64,000 nucleotides of DNA from an uncultured Pelagibacteraceae bacterium (GTDB taxonomy: Bacteria > Pseudomonadota > Alphaproteobacteria > Pelagibacterales > Pelagibacteraceae). Position 1 is the stretch's first letter. Each line of letters begins with the position of its first letter. The stretch covers positions 45,706-109,705 of the forward strand of contig CACKBK010000002.1 of assembly GCA_902598425.1 (NCBI GenBank). The letters run 5' to 3'. Shown here piece after piece: positions 1 to 10,093 of this stretch. Made by a program: the position numbers and the translations under genes. Under the pieces are notes generated by a model. It made no database searches. It was not told where the DNA came from and saw only the letters and a list, made by a program, of their open reading frames with translations.

Positions 1-385
1 ATGCAACGGTTACATTTCCTATTGAAGCTGCATCTTTAGCCCCTCTACCAGCTATTCCTCTTGAAGCTGTTCCACTTTGTTTAGCACCATAATTACCAAA
101 ACATTTTTCCAAAGTTTCATAATCCATACCTTCTGCTTGATCTTTAACAATTAAGGTTGTTGAATTTCTTTTTCCACCTGGTGAATACTCTAACAAACAT
201 TTCCCATTCCATGTTTTCTCTTTTTTTAAATTTGCTAATCTTTCATAAGAATCATCGACGTTTGTAATAAATTCTACTATTGCTTCCCACAAAGAACCCA
301 TTGATTCATCGCTGAGCTGCTTATAGACGCGAGTTGCTATTTTTAAATCTTTTGATGATATTGGTTTACCTGAATTAATTATCAT
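1..385 (-). CDS. GHKL/HATPase-type ATP-binding protein, 3' part cut by window edge
   Basis: Minus-strand frame open from ATG at 385 to window edge: MIINSGKPISSKDLKIATRVYKQLSDESMGSLWEAIVEFITNVDDSYERL...TTLIVKDQAEGMDYETLEKCFGNYGAKQSGTASRGIAGRGAKDAASIGNVTVA. N-box-like ExxxNxDD, G1-like DQAEGM and glycine-rich GRGAKDAA motifs. Confidence 0.75.
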   Translation of the reverse strand, partial: MIINSGKPISSKDLKIATRVYKQLSDESMGSLWEAIVEFITNVDDSYERLANLKKEKTWNGKCLLEYSPGGKRNSTTLIVKDQAEGMDYETLEKCFGNYGAKQSGTASRGIAGRGAKDAASIGNVTVA

Positions 386-1044
386 AACATTTTTTTTAAT
401 TGTTTTTTAGATTTATCTAAAGCAGCCTTCCTTTTCTCTTCATTTAATAAATCTTTATGCTCATTCTCAATAAAATTTAAAAAATCGTAAACTTTTTCAT
501 CAATTTCATATGCTTTATTTTTTGTTTCATAAAATTTTTCAACTAATCTTGGTGTATTGCTAGTTAATACTTTAAGAAAATCTGCCACATCGTAAATAGT
601 TCTATTCTGTAAATTTTTATTACTCTTCCAAGCTTTAAAATATGCTGATCTTTTAATTGAAATTACAAAAGATTTTTCGTGTTGTTGAAAATTACTTTTA
701 TTTTTTTTTATATCAACAAACTCTGCTAGATCTTGATTACAAAACTTTAAACCACTTTCTGTTAAAATCCACCCATCTTTATTTTGATCTTCATGTTTTC
801 CACCGTAAACCTTATTTTCCTCTGCTAAATGTGTTAATGTTTTATAAACTGGTTCTAAATTAGGAAAATTTTTAAATTTTTTTAATTTCCAAGAAAACAT
901 ATCTCTATTTATTTGAAATGCTCTATAACTAATTTCTTCAGTGTGAACTTTTGTTTTATTGCCTCCTCTTTGAAAAAGGCTTATTAATACAATTTCTTTT
1001 TTTGTTAATTTTGTATATTTTTTATCTTTTAAATTCGAAACCAT
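382..1044 (-). CDS. hypothetical protein, possible winged-helix N-terminal part
   Basis: 220-aa ORF overlapping the downstream GHKL ATPase start by 4 nt (ATGA) and the upstream 76-aa ORF by 23 nt. Confidence 0.7.
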   Translation of the reverse strand: MVSNLKDKKYTKLTKKEIVLISLFQRGGNKTKVHTEEISYRAFQINRDMFSWKLKKFKNFPNLEPVYKTLTHLAEENKVYGGKHEDQNKDGWILTESGLKFCNQDLAEFVDIKKNKSNFQQHEKSFVISIKRSAYFKAWKSNKNLQNRTIYDVADFLKVLTSNTPRLVEKFYETKNKAYEIDEKVYDFLNFIENEHKDLLNEEKRKAALDKSKKQLKKML

Positions 1045-1252
1045 CTTTTTTTGTATTTTTTTTTGAATTTTTAAATTTTTCTTTTACTAATCTAATTTCT
1101 TTATCTAGCGCCGACATCATTTGGCTAACTTCTTCATTGCTGTAAGAATAATGACTTTTATTGGATAAATTTCCTATTAATTGAATTGATTTTATTGTTT
1201 TATTTACTCTTTGCTTAGCTAATTCCAAGAATTTGTTTTTTTTATCTTTCAT
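1022..1252 (-). CDS. small hypothetical protein (76 aa), first gene of GHKL operon
   Basis: ORF with motif RVNKTIKSIQLIGNLSNKSHYSYSNEEV; begins just downstream of a promoter-like sequence. Confidence 0.7.
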   Translation of the reverse strand: MKDKKNKFLELAKQRVNKTIKSIQLIGNLSNKSHYSYSNEEVSQMMSALDKEIRLVKEKFKNSKKNTKKDGFEFKR

Positions 1253-1496: not shown

Positions 1497-1724
1497 ATGA
1501 ATAAAGAAAACGCAAGTAAACTCTGGAAAATTATTCAGGAAGCTGGTGATTATCTCAATGGTCAGTTGCCTGACCATCCTAATCATCCCAAAGGTAGAAA
1601 TCCTTATGCTCATGTAGCATTATGTATTAAAAATAAGTTTAGTAATAGTTACAAAGATATAGAAGATGAAAAGTTTGAGGAAGTTGTAAATTTTATTAAT
1701 TTTTTAAAAGAAAATCCAAGTTGA
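1497..1724 (+). CDS. small hypothetical protein (75 aa)
   Basis: Intact ORF MNKENASKLWKIIQEAGDYLNGQLPDHPNHPKGRNPYAHVALCIKNKF; ends flush with the convergent gene. Confidence 0.6.
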   Translation: MNKENASKLWKIIQEAGDYLNGQLPDHPNHPKGRNPYAHVALCIKNKFSNSYKDIEDEKFEEVVNFINFLKENPS

Positions 1725-4817: not shown

Positions 4818-6017
4818 ATGAAAATACTATGTGTTCTGTATGATGATCCAAAAAATGGAATGCCTAAAGCATATCCATTATCAGATTTACCAAAATTAGA
4901 AAAATATCCTGATGGGATGACTTTACCAAGTCCAAAAGGAAGAGATTTTACACCAGGTGAACTTCTTGGATGTGTATCAGGAGAATTAGGTTTAAGAAAA
5001 TTTTTAGAAAGTAATGGTCATGAATTTATTGTTACTAACAGCAAAGACGGAGATGGATGTGAAGCCGACAAGCACATCGTAGATGCAGATATAGTTATAT
5101 CTCAACCATTTTTTCCTTATTACCTAACAAAGGAGAGGATTGCAAAAGCCAAAAACTTAAAAATGGCAATAACTGCAGGAATTGGCTCAGATCATGTTGA
5201 TTTACAAGCAGCTATGGATAATAAGATTGATGTTGTTGAAGTAACATTCTGTAATTCAAGATCAGTTGCAGAACATATTGTTATGATGATTGTATCTATG
5301 GTTAGAGATTATCATAATCAACATAGAGTTGTTAACGAAGGTGGATGGAATATCGCTGATGCAGTTCAAAGAAGTTATGATGTTGAAGGAATGCACATTG
5401 GTACAGTTGCAGCTGGAAGAATTGGGCTTGATGCATTAAGAAAAATGAAACCATTTGATGTTCACTTGCATTATTTTGACAGACATAAATTACCAGATAG
5501 TGTTGAAAAAGAATTAAATCTTACTTTTCATGATTCTGTAGAATCTATGGTAAAGGTATGTGATGTTGTCACAATTAATTGTCCTTTGCACCCAGAGACA
5601 GAAAATCTATTTGATAAAAAAATGATAAGTAAAATGAAAAAAGGTGCATACATAGTTAATACTGCTAGAGGAAAAATATGTAACAGAGATGATATAGCAG
5701 AGGCATTAAAATCAGGTCAATTAAGTGGATATGCAGGAGATGTGTGGTTCCCTCAGCCCGCACCAAACGACCATGTGTGGAGAACAATGCCTAATCACGG
5801 TATGACCCCACATACATCTGGCACTTCTTTGTCAGCTCAAGCAAGATATGCAGATGGTGTAAGAGAAATACTTGAATGTTTCTTTGATAAAAAACCTATA
5901 AGAGATCAATATTTAATAGTTAAAGACGGTCAGCTCGCTGGTATGGGTGCTCACTCTTACAGCAAAGGATCTGCAACAAGTGGATCTGAGGAAGCTGCAA
6001 AATATAAAAAAAAATAA
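4818..6017 (+). CDS. fdh: NAD-dependent formate dehydrogenase
   Basis: 399 aa D-2-hydroxyacid dehydrogenase family; HIVDADIVISQPFFPYYLTKERI, GIGSDHVDLQAA, NSRSVAEHIVMMI, GDVWFPQPAPNDHVWR are FDH-type. Confidence 0.9.
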   Translation: MKILCVLYDDPKNGMPKAYPLSDLPKLEKYPDGMTLPSPKGRDFTPGELLGCVSGELGLRKFLESNGHEFIVTNSKDGDGCEADKHIVDADIVISQPFFPYYLTKERIAKAKNLKMAITAGIGSDHVDLQAAMDNKIDVVEVTFCNSRSVAEHIVMMIVSMVRDYHNQHRVVNEGGWNIADAVQRSYDVEGMHIGTVAAGRIGLDALRKMKPFDVHLHYFDRHKLPDSVEKELNLTFHDSVESMVKVCDVVTINCPLHPETENLFDKKMISKMKKGAYIVNTARGKICNRDDIAEALKSGQLSGYAGDVWFPQPAPNDHVWRTMPNHGMTPHTSGTSLSAQARYADGVREILECFFDKKPIRDQYLIVKDGQLAGMGAHSYSKGSATSGSEEAAKYKKK

Positions 6018-6038
6018 ATTCTTAATTTTTAGTAACAA

Positions 6039-6073
6039 ACTCAAGTTTATATCACCTTGATATAAACTTGAGT
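6039..6073. terminator. 16-bp perfect inverted repeat with 3-nt loop between fdh and selO
   Basis: actcaagtttatatca-cct-tgatataaacttgagt; no strong T-tract follows on either strand. Confidence 0.45.
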
Positions 6074-6091
6074 ATTAACTATATCTATTTA

Positions 6092-7552
6092 ATGGCAGTT
6101 GATAATAAAATTCAATGGAATTTCAATAATACATATTTGAGTCTTCCAAAGATAATGTTATCTGAACAAAAACCAGATATTGTTGAGAAACCAGAAGTTG
6201 TTATAATTAATCACGCTTTATCAAAAGAACTTAGTTTAAATTTATTAGATTTAGATGATGAGTATCTAGCTTCAGTTTTCTCTGGAAATTCATTACCTGA
6301 TGGATCTAAGACTATTTCAATGGCATATGCTGGTCATCAATTTGGACATTTTACTATTTTAGGCGATGGTAGAGCAATAACAATCGGTGAACATGTTACT
6401 CAAAATAATCAAGGATTTGAAATTCAATTTAAAGGTTCAGGTAAAACTAAATTTTCTAGAGATGGTGATGGTAAAGCTGCATTAGGTCCTATGTTAAGAG
6501 AGTATATTATTAGTGAGGCAATGCATTATTTGAATATACCTACAACAAGAAGTTTAGCTGTAATTAAAACTGGTGAAAAAGTAATTAGGGAGACAGAATT
6601 AAAAGGAGCAATTCTTACTAGAGTAGCTACTAGTCATCTTCGTGTAGGCACATTTCAATACTTTGCATATAAAAAAGACGATTCAAATTTAAAAACTCTT
6701 ATTAATTTTACAATTAACAAACATTACCCATTATTAAAAAATAAAGAAAATTTATATTTAAATTTGATTGATAAATTGATGGAAAAACAGATTGATTTAA
6801 TTGTGAATTGGATGAGAGTTGGATTTATTCATGGAGTAATGAATACAGATAATATGGCTTTATCAGGTGAAACTATAGATTATGGTCCATGTGCTTTTAT
6901 GGATCAGTATGATCCAAAGAGTGTATTCAGCTCAATAGACCATTTTGGTCGTTATGCATATTACAACCAACCTACAATAGCAAAATGGAACCTTGCGAGA
7001 TTTGCCGAGTGTTTAATTCCTTTGCTTGATTCAAATAAGGATAAAGCAATAAAATTAGCTACAGATAAGATAAATGAATTTGACAGTAAGTACGAAAAAA
7101 AATGGCTTGAAATGATGAGAGACAAACTTGGGATGATAGGCAATCAAAAAGAAGATGAGGTATTAATCTTAGACTTGTTACAATGGATGCATCTAAATAA
7201 AGCTGATTATACTAATACATTTTGTAATTTAACTTATGAAAATATGATTAATGATAAAATATTTCACAAAGATGACTTTTTAAAATGGAAGGAAAGATGG
7301 AAAATTCGTCTATCAGTAAATAATAATGACAAAACTTCAGAAAAGACTATGAAAAAATCAAACCCTGTAGTGATACCGCGAAATCATCTAGTTGAAGATG
7401 CTTTGAAAACTGCAGAGACAGGTGATTTAGAAAAAACAAATAGATTACTGAAAGTCTTAAGTGAACCTTACAAAATACAATCCTCAATTCAGGATTTACA
7501 GACATCTCCTAAACCTAGCAAAATTCCGTATAAAACTTTTTGCGGCACATAA
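6092..7552 (+). CDS. selO: SelO/YdiU family protein adenylyltransferase
   Basis: AYAGHQFGHFTILGDGRAI, QFKGSGKTKFSRDGDGKAALGPMLREYI, GVMNTDNM, C-terminal FCGT. Start moved to 6092 because the 6068 ATG lies in the hairpin. Confidence 0.88.
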   Translation: MAVDNKIQWNFNNTYLSLPKIMLSEQKPDIVEKPEVVIINHALSKELSLNLLDLDDEYLASVFSGNSLPDGSKTISMAYAGHQFGHFTILGDGRAITIGEHVTQNNQGFEIQFKGSGKTKFSRDGDGKAALGPMLREYIISEAMHYLNIPTTRSLAVIKTGEKVIRETELKGAILTRVATSHLRVGTFQYFAYKKDDSNLKTLINFTINKHYPLLKNKENLYLNLIDKLMEKQIDLIVNWMRVGFIHGVMNTDNMALSGETIDYGPCAFMDQYDPKSVFSSIDHFGRYAYYNQPTIAKWNLARFAECLIPLLDSNKDKAIKLATDKINEFDSKYEKKWLEMMRDKLGMIGNQKEDEVLILDLLQWMHLNKADYTNTFCNLTYENMINDKIFHKDDFLKWKERWKIRLSVNNNDKTSEKTMKKSNPVVIPRNHLVEDALKTAETGDLEKTNRLLKVLSEPYKIQSSIQDLQTSPKPSKIPYKTFCGT

Positions 7553-9331: not shown

Positions 9332-10093
9332 ATGAATAAAAAAACTATTTGGATAACGGGTGGCAGTACGGGAATTGGAAAAGCTCTAGCTATTAAATTT
9401 GCAAGCATGGGATGGAATGTTGCTATTTCTGCAAGAAGAGAAGGTCTTCTTAAAGAAATATCAGAAAATAATAAAAATATTTTTTCTTACCCTCTAGATG
9501 TAACAGACAAGTCGAAATGTTTAGAAGTTTTCAATGAAATTCAAAAAAAATTTGAAAATATAGAAATATGTTTTTTTTCAACAGGGACATGGAATCCTAA
9601 AAAAGAAAAGGATATTGACGTAGAGCAAATTGAAGAGGTATTTAAAGTAAATTTTTTTGGAACATTAAACTGTATCAAAGCTGTTGAAAAATATTTTAAA
9701 GAGAAAAAAGGTGGTATAATAACAATTGTATCCTCTATAGCAGGATACAGAGGATTACCAAACTCGACTGGTTATGGTCCATCTAAATCAGCTTTAAATA
9801 ACCTTGCAGAAAGTTTATTTTTTGATTTTAAAAGATCTAATGTTCGTGTCAGTTTAGTATCACCAGGTTTTATAAAAACGCCAATGACAGATAAAAATGA
9901 TTTTAAAATGCCTTTTTTGAAAACTACCGATTATGCAGCTGAGAAAATATATGACGGGCTAGTAAACAAAAATAATTTTGAAATTCATTTTCCAAAATCC
10001 CTCACAATAATTCTGAAAATATTAAGTTTTTTACCTAGTAAAATTTATTTTAGTCTTGTAGGAAAAATGACAAAGCATCAAAAAAAAAATTAA
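9332..10093 (+). CDS. short-chain dehydrogenase/reductase
   Basis: ITGGSTGIGKALA, SSIAGYRGLPNSTGYGPSKSAL, VSPGFIKTPMT. Confidence 0.88.
   Translation: MNKKTIWITGGSTGIGKALAIKFASMGWNVAISARREGLLKEISENNKNIFSYPLDVTDKSKCLEVFNEIQKKFENIEICFFSTGTWNPKKEKDIDVEQIEEVFKVNFFGTLNCIKAVEKYFKEKKGGIITIVSSIAGYRGLPNSTGYGPSKSALNNLAESLFFDFKRSNVRVSLVSPGFIKTPMTDKNDFKMPFLKTTDYAAEKIYDGLVNKNNFEIHFPKSLTIILKILSFLPSKIYFSLVGKMTKHQKKN

Follow-up and report, generated by a model that had tools for sequence, protein, structure and literature searches.

An accessory, mobile GHKL ATPase module in Pelagibacteraceae, a candidate for compact defence against invading DNA

A three-gene operon at the edge of the window

We analysed a stretch of 64,000 nucleotides from an uncultured Pelagibacteraceae bacterium (C2:45706-109705, matched in position to the full contig), hereafter called the window. 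Its first base falls inside a module of three minus-strand genes. First in the operon is a gene for a 76-aa protein, here called the leader (1022-1252). It is followed by a gene for a 220-aa protein (382-1044) and by the N-terminal part of a GHKL ATPase gene (2-385, listed as 1..385), which is an open reading frame with 128 aa inside the window. The leader gene overlaps the 220-aa gene by 23 nt and the 220-aa gene overlaps the ATPase gene by 4 nt, so that the arrangement given in a preliminary description of this DNA agrees exactly with the ORF coordinates. The single promoter-like element placed there ahead of the operon could not be upheld: 22 promoter-like matches were found and 23.2 were expected from shuffled sequence, no excess over chance.

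The operon had also been regarded as cut by the window and continuing with further partners. When the contig was extended leftward (L006), the complete operon was recovered. The ATPase gene indeed runs on for 1955 bases left of the window, giving a full gene of 779 aa (C2:43751-46090, minus strand), but no additional partners follow. The operon ends at the ATPase and consists of three genes, without a hidden nuclease or methylase, because the next gene leftward, coding for a 243-aa coiled-coil protein, lies on the opposite strand. No nuclease or toxin domain was found in the three-gene unit, and PADLOC returned no meaningful match for any of its three proteins. In the window genome no defence gene adjoins the module, whose neighbours are housekeeping genes.

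All three ORFs are genuine genes. Each of them has homologues, third-position substitutions predominate in all three, and for the ATPase and the 220-aa gene dN/dS comes to about 0.1-0.2. In the ATPase, synonymous change exceeds non-synonymous change approximately 5- to 10-fold. Evidently, the module genes are kept by purifying selection, since synonymous change lies far above non-synonymous change.

The ATPase and its 220-aa partner

The GHKL motifs noticed earlier in the last gene are well founded. In an alignment of eight homologues, residues E38, N42 and D45 (N-box), D82 and G86 (G1) and G115 (G2) are invariant, and the N-box (E..N..D), the DxGxG-like G1 and the G2 glycine motif of the GHKL superfamily follow each other in order. 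The profile of this alignment matched HtpG/Hsp90 in the PDB with E=2.4e-5 over residues 34-242, and one homologue, from G1301, exceeds the Pfam cut-off for HATPase_c_3. The window ATPase alone stays below this cut-off. Searches with the single protein in plasmids, phages, IMG/VR and the PDB gave no matches. The GHKL domain spans about residues 30-200 of the 779, and the middle and C-terminal parts, beyond residue ~250, have no family match; by eye, region 430-640 is strand-rich and perhaps Ig-like. Invented variant rows served only for setting degenerate search patterns. Their sole match, L021, was confirmed with real sequence, and later profiles were built without any invented row.

The objection that the last gene encodes an ordinary HtpG, MutL or sensor kinase fails for the full-length protein, in which the diagnostic domains were not found. 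Pfam gave no match to the Hsp90 middle or C-terminal domains, and the PDB profile match ends at residue 242. The window ATPase and HtpG/Hsp90 are thus alike in the GHKL domain and differ in the remainder; furthermore, the window ATPase is accessory and shares its operon with two small partners. The second and C-terminal domains of MutL were likewise not matched in Pfam, and MutL is missing among the 60 PDB matches listed. For a sensor histidine kinase, no HisKA match was found and the GHKL domain begins at about residue 30. Several weak matches were set aside: L013 is an ordinary histidine kinase, as reading of its frame revealed, the remaining weak genome matches had no readable long frame at the match and were discarded as generic GHKL-type, a motif-pattern match in IMG/VR (L020) was judged to be due to chance, and weak Pfam and PHROG matches to coiled-coil families were dismissed.

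Known GHKL proteins of conflict systems were also compared. In the part of Iyer et al. 2008 (PMC2292703) available to us, MORC and paraMORC ATPases are tied to restriction systems. Like the window module, those of R-M systems are described there as GHKL proteins of sporadic and mobile occurrence, connected with methylases, Vsr and nucleases; unlike them, the window module comes without helicase, methylase or nuclease, and no TIR or RE-fold C-terminal domain was found. Phage defence is reported, in the accessible part of PMC12137116, for a GHKL-Shedu protein. This type I-D Shedu (VcSduA, paraMORC3) resembles our protein in having an N-terminal GHKL ATPase, but according to the same portion of that paper it is a single gene with a fused DUF4263 nuclease. 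The 779 residues of the window ATPase gave no match to a C-terminal DUF4263 or RE-fold nuclease. Nor is it a paraMORC4, as there is no TIR match in the ATPase and the operon ends after it. The portions of the two papers at hand (PMC2292703, PMC12137116) contain no description of the window ATPase family or of the leader; this covers open-access literature only, and an earlier naming is possible. The protein appears to represent a new family of Hsp90/MutL-like (GHKL) ATPases.

The 220-aa protein was modelled with low confidence (pLDDT 42). In residues 15-103, the model consists of a run of three or four helices and then strand-strand, which is compatible with a winged helix (wHTH-like). A homologous pair of 220-aa protein and ATPase occurs in the 129-kb IMG/VR contig L021 (L021:7281-10184; ATPase with 25% identity and E=3e-21, partner with E=4e-11), the viral status of which is IMG/VR's own label. 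The pair adjoins glycosyltransferase-like and LAGLIDADG genes, and a 92-aa gene after the ATPase is not the leader.

Patchy distribution and insertion sites

We examined how the module is distributed. The ATPase is absent from 60 of 60 near relatives and from 288 of 288 other genomes of the class sample. Among 198 genomes of the order, a two-sequence profile detected it in 3, and an improved profile detected the full-length protein in 6 of 329 genomes of the genus, a count that leaves out eight further listed matches, short and weak. All three genes recur in unchanged order, with ends overlapping or touching, in G1128, G1051, G1248, G1237 and G1397. In G1301, the ATPase is accompanied by a partial 220-aa homologue, the contig stopping within the second gene.

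The history of the module and the history of the locus disagree. The module of G1248 sits at a different locus and is 74/73/86% identical to the window module, and the ATPases of G1051 and G1397, located at the window's own locus, are only about 30% identical to the window ATPase. A comparison of G1045 and G1051 reveals a swap of cargo. On the two sides, over 5.2 and 6.5 kb, these genomes share 97% identity; in the repeat-bounded interval, one has the module (L027:7402-11235) and the other a TPR gene for 590 aa (L090, reverse complement, 5150-7157). In other genomes, too, this site is occupied by ordinary cargo, for example a TPR or a peptidase gene. No integrase was found in the unit or near the L027/L090 swap.

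Direct repeats flank the module. In the window, a conserved 75-aa gene (1497..1724, plus strand) located at the insertion hotspot carries in its 5' part the right copy (1524..1555, plus strand) of a 32-bp direct repeat (91%), the left copy being outside the window (C2:43554-43585). The repeat of G1051 is 96 bp long (85%): at the far side of the module, the 75-aa gene recurs truncated to about its first 20 codons. In G1397, a 65-bp direct repeat flanks the module at 97%. At a different locus, in G1248, the direct repeat comprises 185 bp (75%; L052:6034-6217 and 9789-9972), and the 3' end of an M24-peptidase-like gene forms its left copy. As seen by eye, the module of G1237 adjoins UmuD/UmuC-like genes (L053:4529-6179).

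Absence from 60 relatives, patchy carriage, changes of site and flanking direct repeats bear out the initial view that the unit is accessory. Its variability among close relatives, which had been proposed as a check, disposes of the idea that it is conserved and syntenic in all of them. We are therefore nearly certain that this is an accessory, mobile GHKL module. It looks like a non-autonomous integrative cassette, a mechanism that we infer.

The leader family and the role of the module

The leader is the most conserved part of the module. It belongs to a family of ~75-aa proteins, encoded by the operon's first gene, with the motif R..N..I..LIGNLSN..Y.Y and a C-terminal F. Its predicted structure is a helical hairpin (mean pLDDT 82), and Foldseek returned nothing significant for this model. 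No significant family match was obtained in Pfam, PADLOC or PHROG, a weak PHROG match (E=0.003) having failed to recur in relatives; by sequence, the family appears to be uncatalogued. In hmmsearch, leaders of ten plasmid and phage loci were recognised with E from 9e-12 to 3e-25. Relatives are found on plasmids of Bacillota, Actinomycetota, Deinococcota and Alphaproteobacteria, and a 334-genome phylum sample contained the leader in seven further genomes, all of the same class, one of them with a 264-bp scrap.

Outside the genus, the leader stands immediately ahead of a large GHKL-motif protein in 16 loci, of which seven are plasmid (L042, L044-L049), six chromosomal (L064-L069) and three from IMG/VR (L071, L072, L075). 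Besides the window ATPase family, these large proteins form four groups unlinked by BLAST: PDC-M33A, a Gabija-linked GHKL group, an 820-850-aa family beside DNA methylases (L068, L069, L072) and a single 800-aa protein of Ensifer. The Gabija-linked group alone is GHKL by profile (Pfam 6.9e-6; hhalign to the window family 9e-6), the other three by motif only. Neither the PDC-M33A profile nor that of the L068 family found a GHKL match in the PDB, and a GHKL regular expression, which matched 0 of 160 control ORFs, missed several proteins of both. Because profiles and regular expression fell short, the GHKL status of these two groups rests on motifs seen by eye and on invariant columns.

Operons of the PDC-M33 type (M33A/B/C, with DUF6339) are headed by the leader at L042, L043, L045-L047, L064, L065, L067, L071 and L075; PADLOC models of PDC-M33 omit the leader gene, and M33A has GHKL-type motifs. 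In Deinococcus (L043), M33A is apparently broken. These operons resemble the window module in that the same leader comes first and the first large protein bears GHKL motifs, and they often lie by cytosine methylase, Vsr and restriction enzymes. The module itself is nevertheless not PDC-M33. It has no PADLOC M33 match, M33A measures about 610-660 aa and has no detectable relation to the 779-aa ATPase (hhalign to the M33A alignment, E=0.62), B and C are absent from the module, and the 220-aa protein is absent from PDC-M33.

On plasmids of Agrobacterium (L048) and Dinoroseobacter (L049), GajA and a UvrD-like helicase gene lie downstream of the leader and a GHKL ATPase. GajA is identified by PADLOC (E=8e-221) in Agrobacterium L048 only, and Gabija of Dinoroseobacter by annotation. 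The leader is the same and the GHKL N-terminal domain is related to that of the window ATPase (hhalign E=9e-6), but the C-terminal regions differ and GajA and the helicase gene follow. Leader and GHKL ATPase in this position are possibly a Gabija accessory; at L066, a related GHKL with leader occurs, and gajAB was not seen. A conjugative plasmid of Ensifer adhaerens carries an operon of 75-800-229 aa (L044:5980-9305) with the same leader, an ATPase-like protein of similar length and with similar N-terminal motifs, and a ~230-aa partner, but with genes 2 and 3 in swapped order. Values of hhalign (E 0.001-0.02) are suggestive of homology of its two larger proteins to those of the module.

Among cellular and plasmid copies, leader and GHKL gene are strongly associated, though with exceptions. 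These are Vescimonas (L050), L073, where a cytosine methylase follows, and the phage-like contigs L074 and L077-L082. On the phage-like contigs (L074, L077, L078, L079/L080, L081, L082) the leader is present and a GHKL gene was not seen; L081 contains little sequence after the leader, and L074:5488-6222 encodes a fusion protein, a SprT-like HExxH protease with the leader joined to its C-terminus. Such leaders may serve in counter-defence or represent a general DNA-linked domain. Neighbours of leader loci include cytosine methylase, Vsr, MutH/Sau3AI-, AlwI- and other restriction enzymes and Shedu. Co-occurrence with nucleases or methylases, another check proposed beforehand, was thus found at the leader's other loci and not beside the module in the window genome.

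GHKL ATPases are recurrent in prokaryotic conflict systems. We assign a probability of roughly 0.6 to a role of the module in genome conflict, acting against invading DNA (phage or plasmid). By association, the module is probably a compact system directed against viruses or plasmids, because its leader heads other GHKL-ATPase operons beside methylases, Vsr, restriction enzymes, Gabija and Shedu. Of the compact defence system suggested originally, the accessory, compact and GHKL-based character is confirmed, and defence is supported by association only, through the leader's other operons. Counting against defence are the housekeeping neighbourhood in the window genome, the lack of a meaningful PADLOC match and the leaders on phage-like contigs where a GHKL gene was not seen.

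Since the nearest solved structures by profile are HtpG/Hsp90 and the same site holds a TPR or peptidase gene in other genomes, the module could instead be a mobile Hsp90-like chaperone or stress module, its GHKL protein remodelling proteins of the host, its 220-aa protein regulating the operon and its mobility being that of ordinary island cargo. We find this improbable, given that no Hsp90 middle or C-terminal family was matched and that the leader elsewhere accompanies DNA methylases, Vsr and restriction genes, not chaperone partners. A selfish module, maintaining itself in a toxin-antitoxin-like or partition-like manner with the leader as antitoxin or regulator, would agree with an overlapping operon led by small genes, with a compact, repeat-flanked unit without integrase and with the spread of the leader over many plasmids and phage-like contigs. 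Yet no toxin fold was recognised, an ATPase of 779 aa is large for a toxin and the same leader accompanies several ATPase families next to R-M genes, so we give this explanation a similarly small chance.

A further alternative concerns the leader only, which might be a small controller of R-M-related operons, like R-M C proteins, and linked to GHKL genes transcriptionally, not physically. Its place as the operon's first gene, the cytosine methylase that directly follows it in L073 in place of a GHKL gene, and its fusion to the SprT-like protease in L074 would fit. A GHKL-motif ATPase directly after the leader in 16 loci outside the genus, from four groups, and the predicted simple hairpin without HTH argue against a controller, which we rate as rather unlikely.

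MutL, MORC and Hsp90 act by ATP-driven dimer closure. Taking this established GHKL biochemistry together with the lack of a recognisable nuclease, we tentatively propose, by analogy, how the module might act against invading DNA. The 220-aa wHTH-like protein would sense or bind DNA; the ATPase, like MutL, MORC and Hsp90, would dimerise upon ATP binding and close as a clamp on DNA or a DNA-protein complex, thereby blocking or compacting the DNA; and the hairpin leader would be the adaptor or switch of the ATPase. Cutting of DNA would require a host nuclease, as no nuclease domain was found in the unit. It is conceivable, at a comparably low likelihood, that the leader is a dedicated shared partner of at least four to five barely related families of defence GHKL ATPases (the window ATPase, PDC-M33A, the Gabija-linked GHKL, the L068/L069/L072 family and probably that of Ensifer), and that stand-alone phage copies act as decoys or switches.

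To our knowledge, the factors that regulate or target GHKL ATPases in prokaryotic conflicts are known in few cases. The module described here is a minimal form: it consists of three genes, no nuclease was found in it, and the genome around it is small. The action of the ATPase on foreign DNA should therefore be simple to test. Its leader links several separate ATPase families and can thereby help to find further systems of this kind, and the stand-alone copies in phages would be candidates for counter-defence.
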